Below are positions 1,861-56,607 of a stretch of 64,000 nucleotides of DNA, piece by piece. This stretch comes from Longimicrobium sp. GTDB taxonomy: Bacteria; Gemmatimonadota; Gemmatimonadetes; Longimicrobiales; Longimicrobiaceae. The notes below the pieces were generated by a model. The model was not told the DNA's origin, did not search any database, and saw only the letters and a list, made by a program, of their open reading frames with translations. Location: positions 1-64,000 of the forward strand of contig NZ_DATIND010000061.1 in the NCBI RefSeq assembly GCF_035474595.1. Direction: 5' to 3'. The position numbers and the translations under genes are program-made. Numbering within the stretch: position 1 is the stretch's first letter; the number at the start of each line of letters is the position of its first letter.

Positions 1861-2472
1861 ATGCGCATTCCCGTCGTCCTCGCGCTCGCGGTGCCGGTGC
1901 TCGCGGTTACCGGCGGCCTCGGCGCCTACAAGTACATGCGCCCGGCAGCGGGACAGGTGCGCACCTACTACATCGCCGCCGACGAGGTGTCGTACGCGCC
2001 GGCGGGGGGCGCGGCGCAGGCCGGGTACCGCACGGCCGTGTACCAGGAGTACACCGACGCCTCGTTCACCCGCGTGAAGCCGCGGCCGGTGGAGTGGAAG
2101 CACCTGGCCTTCCTGGGCCCGCTGATCCGCGCCGACGTGGGCGACACCATCCGCGTGGTGTTCCGCAACCGCGTGGGCTTCCCCGCCAACGTGCACCCCG
2201 ACGCGGTGCTGCACCACGCGGAGATGGACGCGGCGCTCTCCGCCACGCCTTCGTCGGACGCGGCGGGGCTGGGCGTGGACGGCGACGACGCGCCGGTGGC
2301 GCCGGGCGAGACGCGCGTCTACAACTGGCCCGTGCCGTCGCAGGTGGGGCCGGGGGCGGACGACCACGGCTCGGTGCTCTGGCTCTACCACTCGCGCACC
2401 GGGCAGGAGACGGGCGGCGACGCGGGGCTCATCGGCCCGATGCTCATCTACAAGCGCGGCGCGCTGCACTGA
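1861..2472 (+). CDS. Exported single-domain ceruloplasmin-like cupredoxin
   Basis: A 203-residue protein with an N-terminal hydrophobic anchor (residues 3-20) and one cupredoxin domain. RTYYIAADEVSYAP, YQEYTDASFTRVKP, HLAFLGPLIRADVGDTI and GLIGPMLIYKRG match the domain framework of ceruloplasmin, hephaestin and blood factors V/VIII rather than ordinary bacterial laccases. The usual copper cysteine is not seen: the C-terminal segment reads VLWLYHSRTGQ, keeping a His but lacking Cys. A His pair in VLHH remains. It may be a partial copper site or a structural remnant. GGAGG at 1852-1856 supports the ATG. The gene stands alone between terminator-like hairpins. Confidence 0.75.
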   Translation: MRIPVVLALAVPVLAVTGGLGAYKYMRPAAGQVRTYYIAADEVSYAPAGGAAQAGYRTAVYQEYTDASFTRVKPRPVEWKHLAFLGPLIRADVGDTIRVVFRNRVGFPANVHPDAVLHHAEMDAALSATPSSDAAGLGVDGDDAPVAPGETRVYNWPVPSQVGPGADDHGSVLWLYHSRTGQETGGDAGLIGPMLIYKRGALH

Positions 2473-2497
2473 CCGGCATCAGCCGGCGGGAGATGGA

Positions 2498-2528
2498 GAA
2501 GCGCCCGGCCACGCACGCCGGGCGCTTC
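2498..2528 (+). terminator. Hairpin after the cupredoxin gene
   Basis: GAAGCGCCCGGC and GCCGGGCGCTTC form a perfect 12-bp stem with a 7-base loop, 25 bases after the stop codon. Confidence 0.7.
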
Positions 2529-2734
2529 GTCGTCCATCTCCATCCCCCGGCGGGACAAGGAGCCGGCACGCCGGGGACTGGCGCGATTCGCCAGGTTTTG
2601 TAATCTTTTGCCATCCAACATCTTGCCACGCCCCGCATGTTCGCGCGTCTCCATTCGAGCACCGGCCGCGACTTCCTCCCTCGGCACCCCGGGGACGCGC
2701 CTCCATCCGTCCATCTCCATCTCCCGATGATCCC

Positions 2735-3637
2735 GTGAAGTTCAAGCTCTGTTCGCTCCTCCTCGCCCTCGTGCTCTCTACCGCCGGCGCGCTGCACGCG
2801 CAGAAGCCGGAGACGGAGCAGCGGCTCACCTTTCCCGGCATCGCCTGGGGCGAGCCGTACGCGCGCACCGCGTCGGTGCTGCAGGGGATGGGGTTCGCGC
2901 CCGCGGGCTCGCGCGGCGCCTCGGCGCGGGCGTTCGCCAACGCGCGCGGCGACTCGCTGTACGCGGGCTTCGACGACGGCGGCGGACTGGAGGCGATGAC
3001 CTTCGCCGCGCACCTGCAGGCGTCGGAGATCCGCGGGGCGTTCGACGCGCGCGCGCAGCAGCTGCGCGAGGCGCTGGGCGAGCCCGACAGCGCCAGCGCG
3101 CGCCTGACGTACTGGAGCTTCCCCTCGGGCGACCAGCTGTTCCTGGCGCGCGAGGGCGGCCGGCTGGTGGAGTTCTACTTCAGCGCCGAGGCGCGGGCGA
3201 AGGTGGGGGAGATGCTCGCGGCGTCGGAGAGCGAGGGCGACGAGGTCGGGAGCGACGACGCCGATGCGTGGTACGCCGCGCGGATCCTGAACTCGCGGTG
3301 GGAGGCGCTGGCCGTGGGCACGGAGATGGGCGTGGCTTTCGATCCCGCCACCGCGTCGCGCCTTTCCGACGGCACGCTGGACGTGTGGACGCGGTGGGAC
3401 CACGCCGAGTATGCCGAGAACGACGACGGCAGCCGGTACTCCTACACCATCGAGCACCAGCGCATCGACTGCAGCGGCGGGCGGATGATGACGCTGCAGC
3501 TGGTGGAGTACGACGGCACCCGCGTGGTGAAGTCGCTCACCCCGCCGCAGGCGCGCTGGGAGCCGACCGTCCCCGAGACGATGGGCGAGCAGGTGATCCA
3601 GGCGATCTGCTCCGCCGCGTCGGGGCGGCGGGACTGA
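2735..3637 (+). CDS. Exported protein with C-terminal surface-adhesin-E-like domain
   Basis: A 300-residue protein starting at GTG, with a Sec signal (MKFKLCSLLLALVLSTAGA, cut near HAQ). The N-terminal half (about 27-155) begins FPGIAWGEPYARTASVLQGMGF and looks like the same small alpha/beta module seen at the start of the protein at 12695-13564. The C-terminal part (about 180-298) has SRWEALAVGTEM, a DVWTRWDHAE motif and two Cys, which recalls the adhesin-E-like domain. No catalytic motif is visible. A periplasmic or surface role is inferred only. Confidence 0.7.
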   Translation: MKFKLCSLLLALVLSTAGALHAQKPETEQRLTFPGIAWGEPYARTASVLQGMGFAPAGSRGASARAFANARGDSLYAGFDDGGGLEAMTFAAHLQASEIRGAFDARAQQLREALGEPDSASARLTYWSFPSGDQLFLAREGGRLVEFYFSAEARAKVGEMLAASESEGDEVGSDDADAWYAARILNSRWEALAVGTEMGVAFDPATASRLSDGTLDVWTRWDHAEYAENDDGSRYSYTIEHQRIDCSGGRMMTLQLVEYDGTRVVKSLTPPQARWEPTVPETMGEQVIQAICSAASGRRD

Positions 3638-3680
3638 CGCCGGATCTGGCGATCACCTGTGCATTCCGAACGCACGAAGG

Positions 3681-3944
3681 GACGTCATCCTGAGGCCGGC
3701 CACGCCGTCGTTGGCTCCGCACCAAGCGGTTGCAGGCCGAAGGATCTATCGGCGAGGTCGCACGTGCGCCGCCGGGTTGCACGATGGATCCCCGAATTCC
3801 GTATGACGATGGCGATGATGCGCGATCCGGAAGACGGCTGCGGCGTGGAATCGGAAGCTCACGTGCTGGACCGGCGATAGATCCTTCGGCCTGCAAGCGC
3901 CTGTGTGAAACGGATTACGTCGTGGCCGGCCTCAGGATGACGTC
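3681..3944. repeat. Long palindromic repeat, full copy
   Basis: Outer arms at 3681-3703 and 3922-3944 are perfect 23-bp inverted repeats (GACGTCATCCTGAGG continuing into CCGGCCAC). Inner arms at 3732-3749 and 3877-3894 are perfect 18-bp inverted repeats (GCAGGCCGAAGGATCTAT). It fills most of the gap between two plus-strand genes. Confidence 0.85.
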
Positions 3945-10234: not shown

Positions 10235-10293
10235 GATCTCACGCGGAGGCGCTTGGCGTGCACCTCCGCGTCTCCGCGTCTCCGCGTGAGATC
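10235..10293. repeat. GATCTCACGCGGAG palindrome, copy 1
   Basis: GATCTCACGCGGAG at 10235-10248 is exactly inverted at 10280-10293, with extra CTCCGCGT units inside. Same family at 12527-12601 and 32008-32066. Confidence 0.75.
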
Positions 10294-12526: not shown

Positions 12527-12601
12527 GATCTCACGCGGAGACGCGGAGACGCGGAGGTGTTCGTCCTGCTCCTCCGCGTCTCGGCGGCTCCGCGTGAGGT
12601 C
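12527..12601. repeat. GATCTCACGCGGAG palindrome, copy 2
   Basis: GATCTCACGCGGAG at 12527-12540 and CTCCGCGTGAGGTC at 12588-12601 form the outer arms (one mismatch). The inside holds three ACGCGGAG-type units and their inverse. Confidence 0.75.
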
Positions 12602-15093: not shown

Positions 15094-15146
15094 GCGGCTG
15101 AAGCCGCAGCAACAACCACGGGAAGCCTCGCAAACCGCGCGAGGCT
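15094..15146 (+). repeat. Two-hairpin repeat, copy d
   Basis: GCGGC-TGAA-GCCGC, linker AGCAACAACCACGGGA, then AGCCTCGC/GCGAGGCT. All stems perfect. Confidence 0.85.
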
Positions 15147-15510
15147 GTCCGGCTCGGCGACCGGCTCCGGCTCGCTCCGGGCATCCGGAGCAAATGGATG
15201 CCAGGCCACAGTCCCGGAGGGACTTTGTGCTGTTGTTGCCCGGGAATTCCATTCCCGGCGAGCAAGGCTGTCCGGCTCGGCGACCGGCTCCGGCTCGCTC
15301 CGGGCATCCAGAGCGAGTGGATGCCGAGGCCACAGTCCCGCAGGGACTTTGTGCTGTTGTTGGCCGGGAATTCCATTCCCGGCGAGCAAGGCTGTCCGGC
15401 TCGGCGACCGGCTCCGGCTCGCTCCGGGCATCCGGAGCGAATGGATGCCGAGGCCACAGTCCCGCAGGGACTTCGTGCTGTTGTTGCCCGGGAATTCCAT
15501 TCCCGGTGCT
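15143..15510 (-). repeat. Three tandem copies of a 123-124 bp unit
   Basis: Units begin at 15143, 15266 and 15390, each with GGCTGTCCGGCTCGGCGACC, GCTCCGGGCATCC and one two-hairpin repeat (15210-15258, 15334-15382, 15458-15506: copies e, f, g) on the minus strand. Units differ at only a few positions, so the tripling is recent. They lie between the converging permease and GAF genes; no gene is seen in 15069-15517. Confidence 0.9.
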
Positions 15511-19437: not shown

Positions 19438-20175
19438 TCATCGGTCGCCCGCCCGCGGAGGCGGGGAAAGCTTCACCATCTCCGTCCCGCGGTAATCGTA
19501 CAGCTCGTCGGGGGGCGCGCGGAAGCCGCTCTGCCGCGACTGCCAGTAGGTGTAGAAGCCGGGAAACCGCATGCGCAGCCGTCCCCCGGAACGCAGGATC
19601 TGCGGGCTCTCCGAGCAGTTCCCGAACCGCGGGGTGAGCAGCGGCGGCCTGCCGAAGCGCATCATCAGGACGCGGAACATGGCCGGGCAGGTGTTGCCGT
19701 ACGCGCTCGCGTCGAGGACGGCGACGGCGCCGCTCTCGTTGAAGCTCCCCGCCTGCGCGTGGTAGCTCTGCAGGAACTGGTACACGCCCAGGTCGATGAT
19801 CTGCTCCTCGGCCAGGATCTCGCGGCCGTTCACCGCCAGGTGGTAGGTGGATTCAACCGGGATCTCGCCCCCGATGCTGTCGGCGGTGATGGTCATCGTC
19901 CCGTCGAGCGTGCTGAGGCGCTGCCGCTCCACGTTGCGCCGCGCGAACCGCGGCTCCACCCACGCGGTGTCGACGCCGGGGTTGAGAATGCGGGCGCGCG
20001 CCGCCGCCGAATCCGCCGCCGTGGGCTCCCTGGAGACGGGCGCCGGAGTGGCCGACCTGGCTGGCGGAGCATCCTTCGCCGGTGCGCGAGCGCGGCCCGC
20101 ATCCGGCCGCGGGCACGCGGAGGCGAGCAGCAGCGCGGCGAATACAGCGAGGGAGGAAAGGCGCCGCCGCGTCAT
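19438..20175 (-). CDS. Lipoprotein, paralogue 4 of a tandem family
   Basis: A 245-residue protein with signal and lipobox (FAALLLASAC). Its one domain has the family pattern: VNGREILAEEQ, then CPAMFRVLMMRF, PPLLTPRFGNC, and finally ELYDYRGTEMVKL. Two Cys in C-P-A-M-F-R and F-G-N-C are kept in all copies and may form a disulfide. ATG 20175 overlaps the stop of the upstream paralogue (ATGA). Function unknown. Confidence 0.78.
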   Translation of the reverse strand: MTRRRLSSLAVFAALLLASACPRPDAGRARAPAKDAPPARSATPAPVSREPTAADSAAARARILNPGVDTAWVEPRFARRNVERQRLSTLDGTMTITADSIGGEIPVESTYHLAVNGREILAEEQIIDLGVYQFLQSYHAQAGSFNESGAVAVLDASAYGNTCPAMFRVLMMRFGRPPLLTPRFGNCSESPQILRSGGRLRMRFPGFYTYWQSRQSGFRAPPDELYDYRGTEMVKLSPPPRAGDR

Positions 20176-21302
20176 CGTCCCTTCCTCCCGGCGGTTGCCG
20201 ACCGGAGCGGGACGCGCACCATCCGCCCGGCGCGGTACTCGTACGCCTGCCCGGGCGGGCGGCGGAAGCCCGGCTCCGCCTCCTGCCAGTGCGTCCAATA
20301 GGGGGCGAACTCCAGGCGCACCCCGCCGTCGCGGGTGACCAGCGTAGGAGCCGCCGCGCAGCTGCCGAACTCCTCCGTCAGGCGCGGCGGGCGATGGAGC
20401 CGCATCTCCACCACGCGGAAGAGCGCCTCGCACGCGTTGCCGCCATCCTCGCGCAGCAGCACGGCCAGCGTGCCGTGCGCCGCGGTCCGCGGGACCAGGG
20501 CGTACACCTCCATCGTCAGGCCGAACTCCTCGGTGAGCACCGTCCGGCCGTCCACCGCCACCGTGTTGTGGTGGCTGACGTTCCCGCCTTCCGTCGCGCC
20601 GCGCGTGATCTCCAGCACGCCGTCGGGCGTGGCCAGGCGCCCGCGCAGGCGGCTCATCCGCTCGGAAGGAGGCCGCCACGCGTCGCCATCCCCGCGCGTG
20701 GCGGGGAACTCCTCGCGCCGTCCGGCGGCGAGCCGCGCCAGCGTGGTGTCGCGGTACTCGTACGCTTCCGCGGGCCGGGCGCCGCCGTGCGGGGGGAAGT
20801 CCATCCGCACCACGTCCTCGCCCCACGAGAGCGCGGGGCGGCCGCAGCTGCCGAACGCGCGCGTCAGCAGCGGCGGCCGCTCCGCGTGCACGTCCAGCAC
20901 CCGGTAGGCGGCGCACGCGGAGTCGCCGGGCACGATCTCCAGCACCGCCACGAGCCGCGGATAGAAGCTCTGCGTCACGGAAAGCAGCCGCACGTCGCGC
21001 GCGGCGCTGTCCGCCAGCACCTCGCCGCCGTCCACGAACACGCGGAAGGCGCGGCGGGGGATGGAGTCGCGGACGATGGCGATCACCCCAGCGCCCGCGC
21101 TCACCTTCTCACGCAGCCAAGCGTCCTGCGGCCACGGCCCGGTGGTGTCCGCGTCGGCATCATCCCCCGAATCCGCCGACGCCGCGGACAGCACGGGAGA
21201 TGGCGCCGCGGCGGCCGAGCGCGCGGGTGCCGGCGGCGGCGCGTCCGGGCGCGCGCAGCCGGCCAGGAGCAGGGGGATGAGGATCGCGAGGCGCCGCGGC
21301 AT
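20172..21302 (-). CDS. Two-domain lipoprotein, paralogue 3 of a tandem family
   Basis: A 376-residue protein with lipobox (LIPLLLAGC). It has two copies of the domain: the first ends CAAYRVLDVHAERPPLLTRA with FGSC and YEYRDTTLARL; the second has NTVAVDGRTVLTEE, CEALFRVVEMRL, FGSC and YEYRAGRMVRVPL. The duplication inside one gene shows that the module has spread by both gene and domain duplication. It is translationally coupled to paralogue 4. Confidence 0.8.
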   Translation of the reverse strand: MPRRLAILIPLLLAGCARPDAPPPAPARSAAAAPSPVLSAASADSGDDADADTTGPWPQDAWLREKVSAGAGVIAIVRDSIPRRAFRVFVDGGEVLADSAARDVRLLSVTQSFYPRLVAVLEIVPGDSACAAYRVLDVHAERPPLLTRAFGSCGRPALSWGEDVVRMDFPPHGGARPAEAYEYRDTTLARLAAGRREEFPATRGDGDAWRPPSERMSRLRGRLATPDGVLEITRGATEGGNVSHHNTVAVDGRTVLTEEFGLTMEVYALVPRTAAHGTLAVLLREDGGNACEALFRVVEMRLHRPPRLTEEFGSCAAAPTLVTRDGGVRLEFAPYWTHWQEAEPGFRRPPGQAYEYRAGRMVRVPLRSATAGRKGR

Positions 21303-21335
21303 GGGGCGGGTGAAGAGAAGGTGTCCGGCGTGGCG

Positions 21336-21947
21336 TCACCGGCCGGCGAGGCGGTCCGCCTCCCGGCCGCGGGCGATGGTCACCATCGCCCCGTCCCGGT
21401 ATTCGAGCAGCTCGTCCGGCGGCCACTCGACGTCCGGCGGAAGCGTGTCCAGCAGGGCCAGGCGGGCCGGGAGCCACCCCTCGAAGAAGATCCGCAGCCG
21501 CGCGTGCACGTACCCCACCTCCGGAGCGGAGTCGCAGGTGCCGAACTCCGGGGTGATGCGGGGCGGCTGGAAGTACCGCAGCTCCACCACGCGGAACATC
21601 TGGTCGCACGCGGTGCCGCCGGGGGTGACCGCCAGCACCACGAGCGCGCTCCCGTCGGCCGGCTGCATCAGCGCGTGGATGCGCACGCTCTCGACGTCCT
21701 CTTCCCAGAGCGCGCGGCCGTTCACCAGCACGCGGTAGTGGTTCGCGCGCTTCGCAATCGCGAACACCCCCCGGTCGCGATCCGACCCGAACGTCTCCGT
21801 CACCACCTCGCCGTCCGCGGCCGCAGGCGCCGTATCGCGCCTGGCCGCCGCGGAATCGCGCCGCGCGGGGGAGTGGGCACGCGCGTCGCCGCGGCCGCAG
21901 GAGGCCAGGAGGAGGAGCAGGGCGATCCGCCGCGCGGACGGGTGCAT
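21336..21947 (-). CDS. Lipoprotein, paralogue 2 of a tandem family
   Basis: A 203-residue protein with lipobox (ALLLLLASC). Domain marks: VLVNGRALWEEDV, GGTACDQMFRVVELRYFQPP, RITPEFGTC, and PPDELLEYRDGAMVTIARG. Spaced 33 bases from both neighbours, consistent with one operon. Confidence 0.8.
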   Translation of the reverse strand: MHPSARRIALLLLLASCGRGDARAHSPARRDSAAARRDTAPAAADGEVVTETFGSDRDRGVFAIAKRANHYRVLVNGRALWEEDVESVRIHALMQPADGSALVVLAVTPGGTACDQMFRVVELRYFQPPRITPEFGTCDSAPEVGYVHARLRIFFEGWLPARLALLDTLPPDVEWPPDELLEYRDGAMVTIARGREADRLAGR

Positions 21948-21980
21948 CGGACGGGACGGGAGAGGGTGATGAGTCCGGCG

Positions 21981-22598
21981 TCAGCGTCCGCCGAGGCGGT
22001 CCGCCGCGGCGCCGCGCGCGACCGGGACCATGCGCCCGTCGCGGTACTCGTCCATCCGCGCCGGTTCGGGATGGATTCCGGACGGCTGCGGGTCCATCAG
22101 GCCGATGTAGGTGGGAAGATACGGGCCGGTGTAGACGCGCAGCCGCCCGTGCACCAGGCGGACGTCCGCAGGCGCCGCGCAGGTGCCGAACTCATCCGTG
22201 ATGCGCGGCGGCTGCTCGTACCGCAGCTCGAGGACGCGGTACAGGAACTCGCACGCCACGCCGCCGGGCGTGACCTCCAGCAGCACCAGCACTCCGTCGC
22301 GCGCCGGCAGGACGTGGCTGACGCCGAGGCTCGCCATCTCCGCCGACAGCACCTCGCGGCCGTCCACCGTCACGCGCCACCGGTTCAGCAGCGGGCCGCG
22401 GAGGCGCCGCAGCTGCACGACCCAGCCGTAGGGCGCGACCTGCTCGCTAACGATCTCCCTCGCCGGCGGAGCGACGACGTGGAGCGTCGCGGGGGCACGG
22501 TAGACGGGCGCCGCGGCGCGGACCTCGGGCACGCGCGGTCCCGGGCAGCTCAGCAGCAACAGCAGAATGGAGATGGGAAGCGCGGCGCGCGATGCCAT
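21981..22598 (-). CDS. Lipoprotein, paralogue 1 of a tandem family
   Basis: A 205-residue protein with signal MASRAALPISILLLLLSC (Cys at the lipobox position). Domain marks: VTVDGREVLSAEM, GGVACEFLYRVLELRYEQPP, RITDEFGTC, and MDEYRDGRMVPVARG. First gene of the likely five-gene operon. The longer upstream frame runs into a two-hairpin repeat, so ATG 22598 is chosen. Confidence 0.78.
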   Translation of the reverse strand: MASRAALPISILLLLLSCPGPRVPEVRAAAPVYRAPATLHVVAPPAREIVSEQVAPYGWVVQLRRLRGPLLNRWRVTVDGREVLSAEMASLGVSHVLPARDGVLVLLEVTPGGVACEFLYRVLELRYEQPPRITDEFGTCAAPADVRLVHGRLRVYTGPYLPTYIGLMDPQPSGIHPEPARMDEYRDGRMVPVARGAAADRLGGR

Positions 22599-22669
22599 CG
22601 GGGCGGCAATGGAAGGTGTTGCGGGAGATGCTTCTGCTGGCGTGAAGATTACGGTTCCGCCCCCCACCG

Positions 22670-22722
22670 GCGGCTGAAGCCGCAGCAACAACTACGGGAA
22701 GCCTCGCAAACTGCGCGAGGCT
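22670..22722 (+). repeat. Two-hairpin repeat, copy j
   Basis: GCGGC-TGAA-GCCGC, linker, then GCCTCGC/GCGAGGC, as in copy d. It lies 70 bases upstream of the first lipoprotein gene. Confidence 0.85.
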
Positions 22723-22789: not shown

Positions 22790-22935
22790 GCGTGGTGTTC
22801 GACTCAGGATGACGTCTCGATTTGGCTATCGTCGGTGCATTCGAAAAACGCACAGAGACGTCATCCTGAGGCCGACCACAGCAGAGTCTCCCCCGCACAA
22901 GCGGTTGCAGGCCGAAGGATCCATAGCCGAGGCCA
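22790..22935. repeat. Long palindromic repeat, left half only
   Basis: Outer arm 22858-22880 and inner arm 22906-22924 are present but the right arms are missing; the element stops where the glycosylase gene ends. A second inverse arm (ACTCAGGATGACGTC) lies at 22800-22815. A gene-free gap 22599-22963 holds only repeats. Confidence 0.7.
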
Positions 22936-22963
22936 CACGTCCGTTGCGTCCGATGCGCGGCGC

Positions 22964-23626
22964 TCAAGAGTTCTTGGACACCCAGCGCGATCCGGAGATC
23001 CAGAAGCGGAGCGGCCAGTCCGCCGCCCGGTGCGCGGGGATGCCGATCCGCGGCCCGATAGAAACCTCTGCGTCGGGAACGGCGCGGCCGGCGGCCAGCC
23101 AGAGCGGCGGCGCGTCCAGCGGATGCCGGTTCTGCGCGCCGGTGACGCCCAGCGCGCGCGCCAGGTTCCCGGGCCCGCGCATCAGCTCGCGGTCGGCGCG
23201 TCCGGGCCGGCGCTCGCGCGCCGTCTCGATCCCCTCCACCGGCATCGCCGCGCGGATCAGGACCGCGCCGGGGAAGCCCTCCGTGTCCGTCACCACGTTG
23301 ATGCACCAGTTGATGCCGTAGATCAGGTAGACGTAGGTGATCCCCGGCGGGCCGAACATCACGTCGTTCCTCGCCGTGCGGCCGAACTTCTCCCACGCGT
23401 GCGACGCGGCGTCGTGCGGCCCGACGTACGCCTCCGTCTCCACGATCTCCCCCACGACGCGCGCGCCCCCCACCTCGCTGACGAGCCGCGTCCCCAGCAG
23501 GTCGCGGGCGACGGTCTCGGCCGGGCGCGCGCAGAACTCCGGCGGGAGCGGCGCGGGGTCCACAACGGACGAGCGCCGCGCCCGGTCTTCACCGGACGCG
23601 GCGCTCGCGGAAGCCTTTCGGCTCAC
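22964..23626 (-). CDS. mpg: 3-methyladenine DNA glycosylase (Aag/MPG family)
   Basis: A 220-residue base-excision repair enzyme that removes alkylated purines. Family marks: ARDLLGTRLV, GEIVETEAYVGPHDAASHA (with the catalytic Glu and the invariant Tyr), FGPPGITYVYLIYGINWCINVV, LMRGPGNLARALGV, and the closing PRIGIPAHRAADWPLRFWI. The GTG start overlaps the stop of the NYN-LOTUS gene (GTGA), so the two are translated together. The first 25 residues are not conserved. Activity is well supported by the complete set of motifs. Confidence 0.93.
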   Translation of the reverse strand: MSRKASASAASGEDRARRSSVVDPAPLPPEFCARPAETVARDLLGTRLVSEVGGARVVGEIVETEAYVGPHDAASHAWEKFGRTARNDVMFGPPGITYVYLIYGINWCINVVTDTEGFPGAVLIRAAMPVEGIETARERRPGRADRELMRGPGNLARALGVTGAQNRHPLDAPPLWLAAGRAVPDAEVSIGPRIGIPAHRAADWPLRFWISGSRWVSKNS

Positions 23627-26600
23627 GAGGTGGGCGGCGTGCCGCCGCGTCCCCCGCGCCCGCGTCCCCGGCGCGGCCGGCTTCCGCCCGCCTTGCCGCC
23701 TTCCCCGCCCTGCGCGGGCGGCTCGGGCTGCGGCGCCTCGGCCGCGGGGCGATTGCCGCCGCGCCCCCGTCCGCGACCGCCAGCCGCCGCCTCGGGCGCC
23801 GGCTGCGGAGCGGCCTCCGGCGCGGGCTGCGCACCGCCGCGGCCGCGTCCACGACGACCACCGGCCGCCGGGGCCTCCGCCGCCGGCGCGGCGGGAGCCG
23901 CCTCGGCGCGCGGACCGCGGCCAGCGCGGCCGCGTCCACCACCGCCCGCCTCCGCCGCCGGAGCGGCGGGGAGCGCGGTCTCCGTCGCCTGCTGCTGCGC
24001 GCCGCCGCGGCCGCGGCCACGACGGCCACCGCCCGCGGCGGGCTGCTCGGGCGCCGGAGCCGGCGCCTCCGCCTGCGGCGCGGGAGCGGGCGCCTGCGCG
24101 CCACCCCGTCCCCGCCCGCCACGCCCGCGCGAGCGGCCGCGCGGCTGCGCGTCACCCGCGGGGAGCGACGCCGGCTCCATCAGCGTGGGATCGGTCTCCC
24201 CCTGCGGACCCACGGGAACGTCGATGCCGCCGACGTCCACCGTCTCGGCCGCGGGCGCGTCGGTCGGCGCACCACCACGGCCCCGGCCTCGGCGTCCGCG
24301 CGAACGGCCGCCGGGGCGCGCCGCCTGCGAGGCAAGCGTGGGATCCGAATCCTCCTGCTCGGCCGCGATCGCGTCGTCCGCGGCGGCGACCTCACCGCCG
24401 GGCGCGAACTCGTCAGCGGCCGCCGCGGCGGGTGCCTCTTCCGCCGCCGGGGCTTCCGTCGTCCCCGCGGCATCGCCGTCACCCGCCGCGCGGTTGCGGT
24501 TCCGGTTGCGGCCACCGCGGCGGCCACGGCGGCTGCGGCGCCGCGCGGCCTCTTCCGCCGTCTCCCCGGCGACCGCGTCGGCATCCGCTTCATCCCCCTC
24601 CGCCGTCTCGCCCTGCACCGGCTCGGGGGCGATGGCGGATGCAGCCTCGGCGAAGTCGCGCGCGTCCTCCGCGGGCTCCTCCGCGGTCGGCTGCGGCGCG
24701 GGCTCCTCGGCGGCGGGCGCCGCCTGGGCGCGCTCGGCGCGGCGGGCGTCGCGGTCGGCGGTCCACTGGTCCAGGATCGGCCCGGCGCGGCGGCCGAGCA
24801 GCGCCCGGACCGCGTCGGGATCGTTCTCCAGCGTCTCGAACACCCGCCCGCCGAAGGCCTCGGCCAGCGAGCGGACGGTGGCCGCGCCCACGCCGCGGTA
24901 GCCGGCGAGGTGCGCCTCGACGCCCGCGCGGTCGGTCGGCAGCCCCAGCGCCTCGGCGCTGAACGGCGCCTCGGCGGCCGGCTGCGGCGCGGCGGGCTCC
25001 TCCGCGCGCGGCTTGGGCTGCGGCTCCGCCGGCTGCTCGGGGCGAGCGGAGCCGGGGACGTGGACCACCTGCCCCGGAAGGAGCGGCGGCGGCCCGGAGG
25101 GCGACGCCCACGCGGGACGGCGTCCGCCGTGGCGGTGGCGCAGCCCGCGCTGCGCGTCGGCCGGACCCTCGCGCGAGGCGGAGGACGGCGGCGCGGACTC
25201 GGCGGCGGGGCGCTCCTCGCGGCGCGGCTCCTCGCGGCGCGGCTCCTCGCGCCGGGGCTCTTCCCGGCGGGGCTCCTCGCGACGGGGTTCCTCGCGGCGC
25301 GTCTCCGGCTGCCCGGCTTCGGGCGCGGGCTGCGCGGCGGCGGCGGGACGCTCTTCCTCGCCCCCCGGCACCTGCCCGGGAAGGATCGGCGGCGCGCCCT
25401 CGCGGGGGCCGCGGTCGCGTCCACGGCCACGTCCGCGCCCGCGGTCACGTCCGCGCGGCTCCGCGGGCTCGGCCGTAGCCGACGAGTCGGCGGCCACGCG
25501 GGGCTCGTCGCGGTCGACGGTGATCGGCTCCGGGCGCGGGCCGGTGAGCGCGGGCGGGGCCAGCTTGGTGCCGGAGGAGGGGAGCGCGACCTCGTAGCGC
25601 CCCTCGGCCAGGCGCCGGACGTCCACCACCTGGTCCTCGTGCGCCTGGCGGAGGAAGCGGCTGAACTTGCTGAAGCCCAGCGCGTGCTCGTCGAAGCCGC
25701 CGTCCATCTCCATCATGCGGCGCTTCACGTCGCCGTCGCGGGCGGTCTGGCCCTGGCGGCTGACCAGCGCGCGGACGGCGTGCTGCAGCAGCGCGTAGGC
25801 GTGCGACAGCGCGTCGCGCTCCTCGCGGGTGGCGGGCGCCGGCGGCTCCTCGATGAAAGGCGTGGCGACCTGGGCCTCGCCCACGGGGAAGGCGGCGGCG
25901 ATGGTCTCGGACTCGGTCTCCGCGGCGGGCGCGGCCGAGGCGGCGACGGCCGGCTCCTCGTCGTCGCGCAGCAGGCGCACCGGCGCGGGCTCGGCGCGCG
26001 GCTCGCGCTCGCGGTCGAACTCGCGGTCGCGGTCGCGCCCGAAGTCGCGCGGACGGTCGCGGTCCCGGTCGCGCCCCCGCCCGCCGCGTCCGCGGCCACG
26101 GTCGCGGTCGGGCCCGCGGTCCCGGTCGCGGAAGCGCTCCTCGCGGTCGTAGCGCGGCTGCGTGGCGGGGCCGGCGGCGTCCAGGTCGTCGACCGGCGCC
26201 ACCTCGTACTGCCCGTTCTCCACCTTGTGCAGGCGGATGAGCCCCTTCTCGGCGGCCACCTGCGCGAACTTGCTGAACTTGCTGTACCCCTCGTCCTTCT
26301 CGTCGAAGTTGGGGTCCAGGTCGATCATCACCTGCTTCAGGCGGTCGGTGCGCATCGAGTCGCCCGACGCGGCCATCTTCTGCGCCGCCTCGCGCACCAG
26401 CAGCCAGGGGTCGCGCCGGGGCGTGCCCTGGTCGCCCTCGCGCACCAGCCCGCTCAGCGCGTGGTACGAGTAGTACTCGTCGCAGTTCTGGATCAGCAGG
26501 TCGCTGGAGGAGTCGCGCATCCCCACGCCGATGACGTACTTGCCGTACTCCTTGAGCTTCAGCACGCAGCTCGAGAAGTCGCTGTCGCCGGTGAGGAGGA

Positions 26601-26958
26601 TGAAGGTGCCGATCTCGGGGCGCATGAACGCCAGCTCGATGGCGTCGACCGCCATGCGCAGGTCGGTGGCGTTCTTTTTGGAGGTGCCGTAGGCGGGGGC
26701 GAAGATGAGGTCGATGCTGGCCTCGGTGAGCGGCACCACGTAGTTGGGGTAGCGCCGCCAGTCGGCGTAGGCGCGGCGGACCGCCACCTTGCCGCTGAAG
26801 ATCTCGCTGTTCAGCAGCGTCTTGAGCTCCTTGCCCAGGTCGCTGCGGACGCCGAGGGTGATGTTGTCGAAGTCGATCAGGAGGGCCGCGTTGCGCGCGG
26901 CGGGGGTTGCGGGAGCGCCACCCAGCAGGTGGGGGCTCCGCGGCACGAAGGTCGTCAT
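23623..26958 (-). CDS. NYN nuclease - LOTUS - RG-rich protein
   Basis: A 1,111-residue protein. Residues 24-170 are a NYN (PIN-like) RNase domain: LLIDFDNI, KNATDLRMAVDAIEL and LLTGDSDF give the acidic metal site. Residues about 182-255 and 378-460 are two OST-HTH/LOTUS domains (each has GYSKFSKF or GFSKFSRF and a closing GQYEVA/GRYEVA). Residues 268-325 are Arg/Asp/Gly repeats; about 550-585 have six RREEP units; about 671-745 form a helix-hairpin-helix region; 780-1111 are RGRGG-type repeats. ATG 26958 precedes MTTFVPRS; the upstream frame is array sequence. RNA cleavage or sequestration is inferred from family knowledge. Confidence 0.88.
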   Translation of the reverse strand: MTTFVPRSPHLLGGAPATPAARNAALLIDFDNITLGVRSDLGKELKTLLNSEIFSGKVAVRRAYADWRRYPNYVVPLTEASIDLIFAPAYGTSKKNATDLRMAVDAIELAFMRPEIGTFILLTGDSDFSSCVLKLKEYGKYVIGVGMRDSSSDLLIQNCDEYYSYHALSGLVREGDQGTPRRDPWLLVREAAQKMAASGDSMRTDRLKQVMIDLDPNFDEKDEGYSKFSKFAQVAAEKGLIRLHKVENGQYEVAPVDDLDAAGPATQPRYDREERFRDRDRGPDRDRGRGRGGRGRDRDRDRPRDFGRDRDREFDREREPRAEPAPVRLLRDDEEPAVAASAAPAAETESETIAAAFPVGEAQVATPFIEEPPAPATREERDALSHAYALLQHAVRALVSRQGQTARDGDVKRRMMEMDGGFDEHALGFSKFSRFLRQAHEDQVVDVRRLAEGRYEVALPSSGTKLAPPALTGPRPEPITVDRDEPRVAADSSATAEPAEPRGRDRGRGRGRGRDRGPREGAPPILPGQVPGGEEERPAAAAQPAPEAGQPETRREEPRREEPRREEPRREEPRREEPRREERPAAESAPPSSASREGPADAQRGLRHRHGGRRPAWASPSGPPPLLPGQVVHVPGSARPEQPAEPQPKPRAEEPAAPQPAAEAPFSAEALGLPTDRAGVEAHLAGYRGVGAATVRSLAEAFGGRVFETLENDPDAVRALLGRRAGPILDQWTADRDARRAERAQAAPAAEEPAPQPTAEEPAEDARDFAEAASAIAPEPVQGETAEGDEADADAVAGETAEEAARRRSRRGRRGGRNRNRNRAAGDGDAAGTTEAPAAEEAPAAAAADEFAPGGEVAAADDAIAAEQEDSDPTLASQAARPGGRSRGRRGRGRGGAPTDAPAAETVDVGGIDVPVGPQGETDPTLMEPASLPAGDAQPRGRSRGRGGRGRGGAQAPAPAPQAEAPAPAPEQPAAGGGRRGRGRGGAQQQATETALPAAPAAEAGGGGRGRAGRGPRAEAAPAAPAAEAPAAGGRRGRGRGGAQPAPEAAPQPAPEAAAGGRGRGRGGNRPAAEAPQPEPPAQGGEGGKAGGSRPRRGRGRGGRGGTPPTS
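25210..25300 (-). repeat. Six 15-bp tandem units inside the NYN-LOTUS gene
   Basis: Units of the form GGCTCCTCGCGGCGC encode RREEP on the minus strand; they vary at silent and near-silent places, so selection keeps the charge pattern. Confidence 0.8.
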
Positions 26959-27010
26959 CTCTCGTCCACGTTTCTGTTCACGCGGCGAGCTTCTCCGCTT
27001 CGCGGGGAGA

Positions 27011-27125
27011 AGTGCCAAGTGCCAAGTGCCAAGTGCCAAGTGGGATCATTTCGAGCAAGCCGGGAGACGTCTCACCGGGGACTCAATGTAAACCACTGGG
27101 CACTGGGCACTGAGCACTGGGCACT
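27011..27125. repeat. Inverted pair of 7-bp unit arrays
   Basis: AAGTGCC units at 27011-27042 face GGGCACT units at 27095-27125. The gap lies between the NYN-LOTUS start and the acyl-CoA ligase stop. Confidence 0.75.
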
Positions 27126-27179
27126 CTCCAGGCGAGAGCCGGAGAAGCCCGTCCGCAACAATAGGGTCCTGACGGGAAG

Positions 27180-28778
27180 TCACGGCCGGCGGCTGCTCTC
27201 CTCGGCGCTGATCATGCGCGCGAGCTCCACGCGGCGCACCTTGCCGCTCCCCGTCATGGGAAAGCTGTCGAGGAAGCGGACCAGGTCCGGGACCTTGTAG
27301 TCCGCCAGCACCTCACGGCAGAAATCCTTGATTTCCTCGCCCGTGACGATCGCCCCCTCGACGGGAACGATGCAGGCGCAGCTCACCTCGCCCAGGATCT
27401 CGTCCGGCAGGCCGACGACGGCCACGTCGAGAACGGCGGGGTGCGCATGCAGCCGGTCTTCCACCTCGCGCGGGTACACGTTGAACCCGCCACGGATGAT
27501 CATCTCCTTGCGCCGGCCCAGGACGTGGAGGTAGCCCTCCTCGTCGACCATTCCCAGGTCGCCGGTCATGAAGAAGCGGTCGCCCGTGAACACCAGCGCG
27601 GTCTCGCCGGGCTGGCGGTAGTACCCCTGCATCACGCAGGGCCCGCGCACCGCGATCTCGCCCACGCTCTCAACCGGCAGCACGCTGCCGTCCACGTCGT
27701 GGATGCGCAGCTCCACGCCGGGAAGCGGGCGGCCCACCGTGGACACCGACTTTCCCTGCGGGTCGTCGCTGCGGGTGAGCGCCACGGTTTCGCTGGTTTC
27801 CGTGAGCCCGTATCCGATCCTCAGGTCGGGCACCAGCTCGCGGCGGATGCGCATCACCAGCTCTTCCGACGCGGGGGCGCCGGCCACGATGCCGGTGCGC
27901 ACGGAGGACAGGTCGTACGACCCGTTCTCCATCTCCTTCAGCGCCAGCACGTAGTTGGTGGGCACGCCGTGGTACACCGTCACCCGCTCGCGCTCGATCA
28001 GCTCCAGCGCGGCCGAGGCGCCGTCGTGGTCCTGCAGCACCATGGCCGCACCGGCCATCATGGCGCCCATCATCCCGGTGCCCATCCCGAACACGTTGAA
28101 GAGCGAGTTCAGGCCGAACACCACGTCGTCGCCCGTGAGCCCCAGCGCGTCGGCCGTGCCCGCGGCGGTGGTCAGCACGTTGGCGTGGCTCAGCGCCACC
28201 CCCTTCGGCTTTCCCATCGTGCCGCTGGTGTACAGGATGGCGAAGAGCTCGTCGGGCAAGCCCTGGTGGCGCGGGAACGGGCGCCCCTCGCCGCTGGACA
28301 CCAGGTCCTCGAACTGGTGGATGCGGTCGTCGTACCACAGGTCTTCCTCGCCCACGCTCACCACGTACTGCAGGTCGGGGAGCGAGGTCAGGAAGCCCTC
28401 GTAGCGCGCCAGGTAGTCCACCCCTTCCCAGTTCTCGGCCGTCACGACGACCGCCGTTTCCGAGTGCCGCAGCATGTACTGCAGCTCGGGGGTGGTGTAG
28501 CGCGGGTTCAGCGGCACGATGACGGCGCCGAGCTTGGCCGCCGCGAAGGCCGCCACCACAAACTCGGGCCAGTTGGGAAGGGTCAGCGCCATGCGGTCGC
28601 CGGCCTCGATCCCCAGCTCGTGCAGGGCGGCCGCCAGGGCGCTGCTCTGGTGGTCGATCTGCGCGTAGGTGCAGCGCCGGTCCCCGAACGCAACGAACGG
28701 CCGCCGTGGGTCCTCACCGGCGCGGATGGCAAGCGCATCCGCGACCGAGAGCCCCGTGAAGCGGTCTCGTAGCGTCAT
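27180..28778 (-). CDS. AMP-forming acyl-CoA synthetase (long-chain fatty-acid-CoA-ligase type)
   Basis: A 532-residue adenylate-forming enzyme. Motifs: LYTSGTMGKPKGVALSH (P-loop-like A3), GYGLTETSETV (A5), TGDRFFMTGDLGMVDEEGYL (A7), and GRRKEMIIRGGFNVYPREVE (A8), with the acylation lysine in MTGSGKVRRVEL. It activates a carboxylic acid with ATP and loads CoA; chain length cannot be told. GGAGG with a 4-base spacer before ATG 28778 fixes the start. The longer frame to 29018 is repeat sequence. Confidence 0.88.
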   Translation of the reverse strand: MTLRDRFTGLSVADALAIRAGEDPRRPFVAFGDRRCTYAQIDHQSSALAAALHELGIEAGDRMALTLPNWPEFVVAAFAAAKLGAVIVPLNPRYTTPELQYMLRHSETAVVVTAENWEGVDYLARYEGFLTSLPDLQYVVSVGEEDLWYDDRIHQFEDLVSSGEGRPFPRHQGLPDELFAILYTSGTMGKPKGVALSHANVLTTAAGTADALGLTGDDVVFGLNSLFNVFGMGTGMMGAMMAGAAMVLQDHDGASAALELIERERVTVYHGVPTNYVLALKEMENGSYDLSSVRTGIVAGAPASEELVMRIRRELVPDLRIGYGLTETSETVALTRSDDPQGKSVSTVGRPLPGVELRIHDVDGSVLPVESVGEIAVRGPCVMQGYYRQPGETALVFTGDRFFMTGDLGMVDEEGYLHVLGRRKEMIIRGGFNVYPREVEDRLHAHPAVLDVAVVGLPDEILGEVSCACIVPVEGAIVTGEEIKDFCREVLADYKVPDLVRFLDSFPMTGSGKVRRVELARMISAEESSRRP

Positions 28779-28853
28779 TGATCCTCCGTTGGGGTGGCCG
28801 GCGTGGGTTTCGGGCGCGACAAACATAGCGGCCGGGCCGAACGGCGTCAAACT

Positions 28854-28882
28854 TTGACCGGGGGCGGGTTTCCGGGTATCTT
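28854..28882 (+). promoter_or_regulatory. Candidate sigma-70-type promoter for the helicase gene
   Basis: TTGACC at 28854-28859 and TATCTT at 28877-28882 with a 17-base spacer. It points at the helicase gene 270 bases downstream. Confidence 0.45.
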
Positions 28883-28892
28883 CGGAACCGAA

Positions 28893-29141
28893 AAGTCCTA
28901 AGTCCCAAGTCCTAAGTCCCAGGTTTTGGCAGGGCGATTTCGGAGCTTTGCGACGGATGTCTCCGCCTTCCGGCCGTGCCTCTCTCCCGCGCTTCGCAGG
29001 AGATCGCCATCTGTTCACTTAGGACTTAGGACTCAGGACTCAGGACTCAGGACTCAGGACTCAGGACTCAGGACTCAGGACTCAGGACTCAGGACTCAGG
29101 AGTTCGCCGTTCTGCACTTTCGCACTCTCGCACTTTCGCAC
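28893..29141. repeat. Inverted 7-bp arrays upstream of the helicase gene
   Basis: AGTCCTA/AGTCCCA units at 28893-28922 face GGACTTA/GGACTCA units at 29017-29101 (about eleven). A further GCACTTTC/GCACTCTC array is at 29113-29141 and its inverse follows the helicase gene at 31343-31383. No gene is seen in the gap 28779-29149. Confidence 0.8.
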
Positions 29142-31575: not shown

Positions 31576-32001
31576 ATGTCCGATCTCACCATCAGCCTGG
31601 AACCGGACGCGCCCGAAGAGGATGTCCGCGCGGTGGGCGAAGGGTTGTTCGCGTACAACCGGCGCCTCGTGGGCGAGTACGCGTACGAGACGCTCCGGTT
31701 CTTCCTGCGCGACGAGGGCGGCGCGGTCGCGGGCGGGCTGGTCGCCGACATGCTGATGGGATGGATGTTCGTGCAGGTCCTGTGGGTCGGCGACGCGCAC
31801 CGGGGCGGCGGCCACGGCTCGGAGCTGCTGCGCCGCGCCGAAGCCGAGGCGCGGCAACGCGGCTGCCGCGGGATGTGGCTCGACACCTTCACCTTCCAGG
31901 CGCCGGAGTTCTACCGGAAGATGGGATTCCGCGAGTTCGGCCGGATCGACGACTTTCCGCCGGGCTACGCGCGGCACTTCTTCATGAAGACGCTGGACTG
32001 A
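31576..32001 (+). CDS. GNAT family N-acetyltransferase
   Basis: A 141-residue protein. The acetyl-CoA motif is WVGDAHRGGGHGSELLRRAEAEA (the R-G-x-G-x-G loop), followed by WLDTFTFQAPEFYRKMGFREFG, the usual C-terminal part. ADMLMGWMFVQVLWV is the central strand. The acceptor is unknown. ATG 31576 starts at the conserved fold; a TTG at 31528 is possible. It converges with the peptide cluster across a 22-bp hairpin. Confidence 0.85.
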   Translation: MSDLTISLEPDAPEEDVRAVGEGLFAYNRRLVGEYAYETLRFFLRDEGGAVAGGLVADMLMGWMFVQVLWVGDAHRGGGHGSELLRRAEAEARQRGCRGMWLDTFTFQAPEFYRKMGFREFGRIDDFPPGYARHFFMKTLD

Positions 32002-32007
32002 CGGGCG

Positions 32008-32066
32008 GATCTCACGCGGAGAAGCAGGGCAGCGGAGGTGTTCGTCCGCTGCCCTGCTTCTCCGCG
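32008..32066. terminator. Bidirectional terminator-like 22-bp hairpin (GATCTCACGCGGAG palindrome, copy 3)
   Basis: Stem 32015-32036 pairs perfectly with 32045-32066 (22 bp, CGCGGAGAAGCAGGGC at the base, 8-base loop). It lies between the converging GNAT and peptide genes and carries the GATCTCACGCGGAG start seen in two other copies. Confidence 0.8.
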
Positions 32067-32088
32067 TATGTCCCGTCCGTTCAGCGGG

Positions 32089-36341: not shown

Positions 36342-36416
36342 TCCCGCCCAAACCTGGTGGCGCTCCGTCAGAGGTTTTCGCCACCGCAGACAGCCCGTCA
36401 GGGGACGGCCTCCTGC

Positions 36417-36450
36417 TGTCCCCTGTCCCCTGTGTCCTGTCCCCTGTCCC
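36417..36450 (+). repeat. CCCTGTC 7-bp unit array
   Basis: About five TGTCCCC-type units. Same period as the arrays near 27, 28.9 and 56.5 kb but a different unit. Confidence 0.7.
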
Positions 36451-36455
36451 CACTC

Positions 36456-56289: not shown

Positions 56290-56607
56290 GAAGTGCTAAG
56301 TCCCAAGTGCCAAGTCCTAAGTGGTGATACCGGATTCGGGGGAGCCATCGTGCGATCCGGCAGCGCACGTGCGACCTTGCCTATGGATCCTTCGGCCTGC
56401 AGCCGCTCGTGCGGGGATAACGGCGGTGTGGCCGGCCTCAGGATGACGTCTCTCTGGGTGCTTCCAGTGCACAGGTGATTGCCAGATCTGGTGTAACTGC
56501 TCGATCGGCGTGCTGTGTTGACTCAGCACTCAGCACTCAGCACTCAGCACTCAGCACTTAGGACTTAGGACTTAGGACTTAGGACTTAGGACTCAGGACT
56601 CAGGACT
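56290..56607. repeat. Inverted 7-bp arrays around a half palindromic repeat
   Basis: AGTCCCA/AGTGCCA/AGTCCTA units at 56290-56323 face ACTCAGC/GGACTTA/GGACTCA units at 56521-56607 (about twelve). Between them (56342-56455) lies a right half of the long palindromic repeat. This fills the gap 56286-56660; no gene is seen there. Confidence 0.8.

Follow-up and report, generated by a model that had tools for sequence, protein, structure and literature searches.

Bacterial proteins that join an LK-nuclease (DUF88/NYN) domain to single or duplicated C-terminal OST-HTH domains, also called LOTUS domains, are widespread and form a predicted RNase family (Anantharaman, Zhang and Aravind 2010, PMC2848206). 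The survey that described them found no conserved gene-neighbourhood links of bacterial OST-HTH proteins to other known RNA-processing systems (PMC2848206). Among eukaryotes, Arabidopsis DNE1 consists of an NYN domain and two LOTUS domains (PMC10226599), and human MARF1 has two RRMs and eight LOTUS domains (PMC6294520). Here we analyse a 64,000-nucleotide stretch of Longimicrobium sp. (Gemmatimonadota; contig NZ_DATIND010000061.1, positions 1 to 64,000), hereafter the window, and within it one gene whose product carries an NYN domain, two LOTUS domains, a helix-hairpin-helix (HhH)-like domain and an Arg-Gly (RG)-rich tail. The NYN-LOTUS-LOTUS core is an already known bacterial architecture, and its closest described eukaryotic layout is that of DNE1. 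New are the HhH domain, the RG-rich tails, the conserved short motifs, the class-wide presence, a DNA glycosylase neighbour and a hairpin between the two genes.

Comparison with described systems

The protein has in common with the LK-nuclease and OST-HTH family an N-terminal NYN domain with conserved aspartates and two OST-HTH domains, whereas the HhH domain, the very long RG-rich linkers and tail, the short motifs and the conserved gene neighbour are additions. The link to a glycosylase neighbour seems new, since the 2010 survey (PMC2848206) reported no such links to RNA-processing systems. The literature searched had no paper joining three among NYN, HhH, LOTUS, methyladenine and Gemmatimonadetes. 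DNE1 is equal in domain order and number, but no HhH is described for it, and the likeness is one of layout. Animal MARF1 (Limkain b1), an endoribonuclease working with the decay machinery, resembles our protein in its NYN fold and in having LOTUS domains; it differs in its LOTUS array, which has six to eight members rather than two, and in the RRMs that stand between NYN and this array; a Pfam scan of our protein up to E 1 found no RRM. Because RRMs were not found and the LOTUS domains number only two, the closest eukaryotic layout is plant DNE1 and not MARF1. A sequence-only reading of this gene had proposed a MARF1-type order, which stands for the NYN fold and gives way to a DNE1-like arrangement for the protein as a whole. 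RNase E is an endoribonuclease with a long disordered region holding short partner-binding motifs. Such a region with short motifs is present here as well, but the catalytic domains are unrelated, and the same genome encodes a separate, short RNase E/G.

The NYN-LOTUS core

The gene occupies 23623-26958 on the minus strand, as do all its parts given below, and encodes 1,111 residues uninterrupted from ATG to TGA. At 77-85% GC, an open frame is by itself weak evidence of coding. Orthologues and codon-position bias support this one: substitutions relative to the nearest relative at codon positions 1/2/3 number 4/5/22 in the NYN domain and 53/38/159 in the tail, and the third-position excess holds in every segment, tail included. 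Since the differences fall mainly at third positions, we conclude that selection acts here on a translated frame.

The sequence-only reading recognized an NYN RNase domain and two LOTUS domains, and both profiles and models bear this out. The NYN domain was matched by Pfam at residues 24-164 (26467-26889; PF01936, E 2e-23), and OST-HTH was matched twice (PF12872, whole-protein E 2e-8), with the best stretch at residues 394-449. An AlphaFold model of residues 1-465 placed two winged-helix domains, with a predicted local distance difference test (pLDDT) score of 80-97, at about residues 181-260 and 378-460, with disorder between them. The former is LOTUS domain 1 (residues 181-260; 26179-26418; pLDDT 80-94), which contains the second Pfam stretch and is 48-94% identical to its relatives. 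LOTUS domain 2 (residues 379-460; 25579-25824) superposed on the TDRD5 LOTUS domain with Z 11.2, at 2.1 Å over 80 residues, and on that of TDRD7 with Z 10.7; the bacterial LOTUS protein NE0665 was matched by the 1-465 model with Z 8.9.

The NYN region of the model has a pLDDT of about 50, a low value that probably stems from too uniform an alignment, yet its strands and helices alternate as expected. Its top structural matches were the NYN domains of mouse and human MARF1 (Z 11.9 and 11.1), the Z 11.9 superposition with this low-pLDDT region covering 123 residues at 2.6 Å, and bacterial VPA0982 was also among the best matches (Z 10.4). The acidic site is preserved, as D29, D31, D99, D105, D125 and D127, all the candidate residues, are invariant in an alignment of 25 sequences.

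Of 41 close genomes from the same order, 39 have the NYN domain of this gene. Across the phylum, NYN with LOTUS domain 1 was present in 140 of 150 genomes, that is, in 140/144 of the same Gemmatimonadota class and 0/6 of another, at 61-75% identity over these two domains in that class. All OST-HTH matches in 21 relatives fell within this gene, and its product is the only OST-HTH protein found in its own genome. Within this one Gemmatimonadota class, known from soil and sediment, nearly every sampled genome carries the gene as part of its core. LOTUS domains have been proposed to originate in bacteria fused to a nuclease, and a class that has this gene in almost all its genomes, and cultured members such as Longimicrobium, would be suited to experiments on the ancestral role of LOTUS nucleases.

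Linkers, tail and HhH domain

Three low-complexity segments separate or follow the domains. Linker 1 (residues 263-378; 25825-26172; pLDDT about 40) is 22% Arg and rich in Asp and Glu, and linker 2 (residues 461-665; 24964-25578) carries five RREEP repeats and RG runs. The C-terminal 361 residues (751-1111; 23626-24708), also rich in Ala, Pro and Glu, are 13% Arg and 18.8% Gly and contain 26 RG dipeptides where shuffling these residues gives 8.8 +/- 2.5, a clustering beyond composition as found in RGG/RG-motif RNA-binding proteins. RGRGG occurs eight times in the protein. The repeats that had been read from the sequence are confirmed. As a genome-wide DNA pattern, RGRGG was uninformative, since its reversed control occurred at about the same frequency.

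Every close relative has such tails, and they differ from one relative to the next. Aligned with that of the nearest relative, the tail is 76% identical and needs 82 gap columns, whereas the NYN domain is 97% identical and needs none. The RG count per protein ranges from 3 to 49 across members, with a median per 100 residues of 3.7 in the genus, 1.9 in the rest of the family and 1.4 in the order's other families.

The helix-hairpin-helix had been placed "in between"; an (HhH)2-like domain is predicted at residues 666-750 (24709-24963), but it follows linker 2 and precedes the C-terminal tail, and does not lie between the LOTUS domains. This segment is conserved in alignment and was modelled as helical (pLDDT 88.8), and its sequence profile matched the HhH regions of XPF and Topo V (E 0.002 and 0.001, respectively). 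Its first hairpin is clear, Y-x-GVG-x-KTA (also written Y-x-G-V-G-x-x-T), and the second unit is degenerate. Structural matches were modest (Z 5-7), with SAM domains scoring equally high, and the assignment therefore leans mainly on the motif. HhH was detected in 55 of 85 distinct proteins, about two thirds; that it went undetected in Gemmatimonadales-type members may reflect loss or late gain. In one relative (L057), the NYN frame (2129-3844) stops early and an HhH match lies about 192-425 bases past the stop, outside the frame, which may represent a frameshift, an assembly error or a split gene.

Short motifs in the disordered region

Two copies of a family-conserved motif lie in linker 2: PPILPGQVP at residues 523-531 (25366-25392), and PPLLPGQVV at residues 624-632 (25063-25089), the latter preceded by an Arg/Gly-rich stretch. 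LPGQ occurs downstream of LOTUS domain 2, as P..LPGQ, in all 13 complete proteins of the family. Among the 85 distinct proteins, PP[LIV][LFM]xGQ was found in 29 (counted with the regular expression P[PA][LIVEM][LFIM].GQ) and PPxLLxxGV, the form in Gemmatimonadales, in 15, with none in shuffles. A basic element, [RW]G[ST]R[GS], precedes the motif in several members (L052, L054, L060, L090, L139). A further motif, [DE][TS]DPTL, appears in the C-terminal tail at residues 870 and 921 and is restricted to the genus.

Conserved islands of this kind within an otherwise unconserved disordered region resemble partner-docking motifs, and the peptide for the putative docking motif is GPPPLLPGQVVHV. A degenerate codon pattern for PP[LF][LF]PGQ had this gene as its sole match in the genome, and the corresponding degenerate genome search for DTDPT[LF] returned no match; by these searches, neither motif is common to another protein of the genome, and they did not reveal the partner. 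Conserved motifs amid fast-evolving disorder give a direct handle on it.

Proposed function and alternatives

We think it probable that the protein is a housekeeping endoribonuclease of the NYN/DUF88 and OST-HTH (LK-nuclease) family, in which the RG-rich linkers would add RNA contacts and the short motifs would dock a partner. MARF1 NYN domains cleave single-stranded RNA via four aspartates (PMC10226599), and G-quadruplex (G4) RNA is bound by LOTUS domains from several kingdoms, bacteria included, as reported in PMC12247748. Given the invariant aspartates here and the G4 RNA binding of other LOTUS domains, a putative endoribonuclease directed to structured or G-rich RNA is the most likely assignment. 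By analogy with its family, the NYN domain would cleave single-stranded RNA, its conserved aspartates coordinating a metal ion for the reaction, and the two LOTUS domains, judging by tested ones that include bacterial examples, may pick structured or G-rich RNA. The disordered Arg/Gly-rich linkers and tail could provide multivalent RNA contacts, the short motifs probably dock a partner protein in the manner of the RNase E tail, and the HhH domain, which about two thirds of the class have acquired or retained, may be an extra nucleic-acid contact.

Several points weigh against this reading. The NYN model is of low confidence (pLDDT about 50), the RG enrichment is partly favoured by GC of up to 85% in the tail stretch, and the literature searched held no experimentally tested member of this clade. 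Recognition by the protein of G-quadruplexes in its own mRNA is unsupported, as coding-strand G4 motifs numbered 1 against 0.8 +/- 0.8 in synonymous shuffles.

It is possible, if clearly short of probable, that the protein acts instead as a hub of ribonucleoprotein condensates, its RG-rich tails phase-separating with RNA to nucleate an RNA-decay body like the BR-bodies of RNase E. The long, low-pLDDT linkers, the strong RG excess, the docking-like motifs and the tail-less RNase E/G of the same genome would all suit such a role. Net charge, however, is near zero, and most relatives keep the core with short, RG-poor tails (3-11 RG in group f3), so RG-driven condensation is not a function shared across the family. 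The same variability, with RG counts from 3 to 49, frequent indels, an identity that drops faster than in the domains and 81-85% GC in the tail region, could instead mean that the tails are a neutral, GC-driven expansion of low-complexity sequence and that only NYN-LOTUS-LOTUS matters. We find this doubtful, because RG far exceeds shuffles of the same residues, all complete genus members have RG-rich tails, and the short motifs within the region are conserved across the family. Quite improbable, in our estimate, is a surveillance of nucleic-acid damage or R-loops in which the RNase and the neighbouring DNA glycosylase serve one pathway and the HhH domain binds DNA near the RNA target. In its favour, 70 of 83 genes, from several orders, are followed directly by the glycosylase, the HhH domain resembles those of repair proteins, and in the family a UvrD-type helicase gene lies upstream in divergent orientation; yet a terminator-like hairpin separates the two genes, several lineages have no glycosylase at this place, and about a third of members, many of them with the glycosylase, have no detectable HhH.

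RNase E/G in this genome is a short catalytic form (open frame of 585 residues) with no long tail. Both RNase E/G and RNase Y were matched in 21 of 21 genomes, this one and 20 relatives, in all of which RNase J stayed below the cut-off. Replacement of RNase E and RNase Y is thus ruled out. The tail-less RNase E/G, the RNase Y and an RNase J not above the cut-off leave room, speculatively, for a scaffolded NYN-LOTUS nuclease. One could go further and suppose that in this class the role of scaffolded RNA-decay hub falls to the NYN-LOTUS nuclease and not to RNase E, with partners docking via PPxLxGQ/PPxLLxxGV, and that RG expansion in the Longimicrobium-type genus made this nuclease a nucleator of RNA condensates, convergent with animal germ-granule LOTUS proteins; we regard this as unlikely. 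In bacteria, the protein may correspond to the nucleases of RNA granules, and the natural series of 3 to 49 RG dipeptides lets a progression from RG expansion to condensates be tested.

Neighbouring genes and the intergenic hairpin

The open reading frame of the methylpurine (3-methyladenine) DNA glycosylase (22964-23626, minus strand; PF02245, E 3e-62) lies directly downstream on the same strand, an arrangement found in 70 of 83 distinct complete genes from several orders. The sequence-only reading proposed that the two genes are coupled by a 4-base overlap. The GTGA overlap is as written and the adjacency is conserved, but just past the NYN-LOTUS stop, within what would be the first codons of the glycosylase, lies a GC-rich, terminator-like hairpin of 18 bp (23569-23608, minus strand), and glycosylase homology in relatives starts mostly at residue 20-36 of the annotated frame, about 25 codons in. 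GTG at 23563 is the more likely start, and the 4-base coupling is doubtful. In close relatives the frame is kept and the start still overlaps (GTGA or TGATG); some coupling is thus conceivable, if doubtful. In L093, L094, L107, L125 and L141, which have no glycosylase downstream, an antiporter-like membrane protein and/or an electron-transfer-flavoprotein-beta-like frame was seen there by eye.

The hairpin has a folding energy of -49.4 kcal/mol for a 71-nucleotide stretch (z -6.7). A stem of at least 10 occurs at the matching place in 49 of 85 genes, whereas a control position gave 9/85 and shuffled sequences 11-14, and the arms in relatives differ in sequence yet pair. Ten relatives have a run of at least four T right after the hairpin, as in intrinsic terminators. 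The hairpin of the window itself has only a poor T run after it, and a consensus terminator scan found no terminator; the element could therefore also be an attenuator or a 3'-end stabiliser. No Rfam family was matched in 22900-27300.

Upstream lies an AMP-binding, acyl-CoA synthetase-like frame (27180-29018, minus strand), which holds this position in most Longimicrobiales relatives. Arrays of 7-base units (AAGTGCC, CACTGGG, ACTCAGG, CTGTCCC) occur at 27010-27042, 27094-27125, 29017-29101, 36416-36451 and 56520-56607, two of them in the gap immediately upstream of the NYN-LOTUS gene. Elsewhere in the window, tandem lipoprotein-like frames at 19438-22691 (minus strand) look like paralogues by eye, and the three that were tested had no Pfam match up to E 0.1. 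A 124-bp unit is present in three near-identical tandem copies at 15142-15506. Dispersed inverted repeats with a common GATCTCACGCGGAG, at 10235-10293, 12527-12601 and 32001-32080, are possibly a mobile palindromic element.

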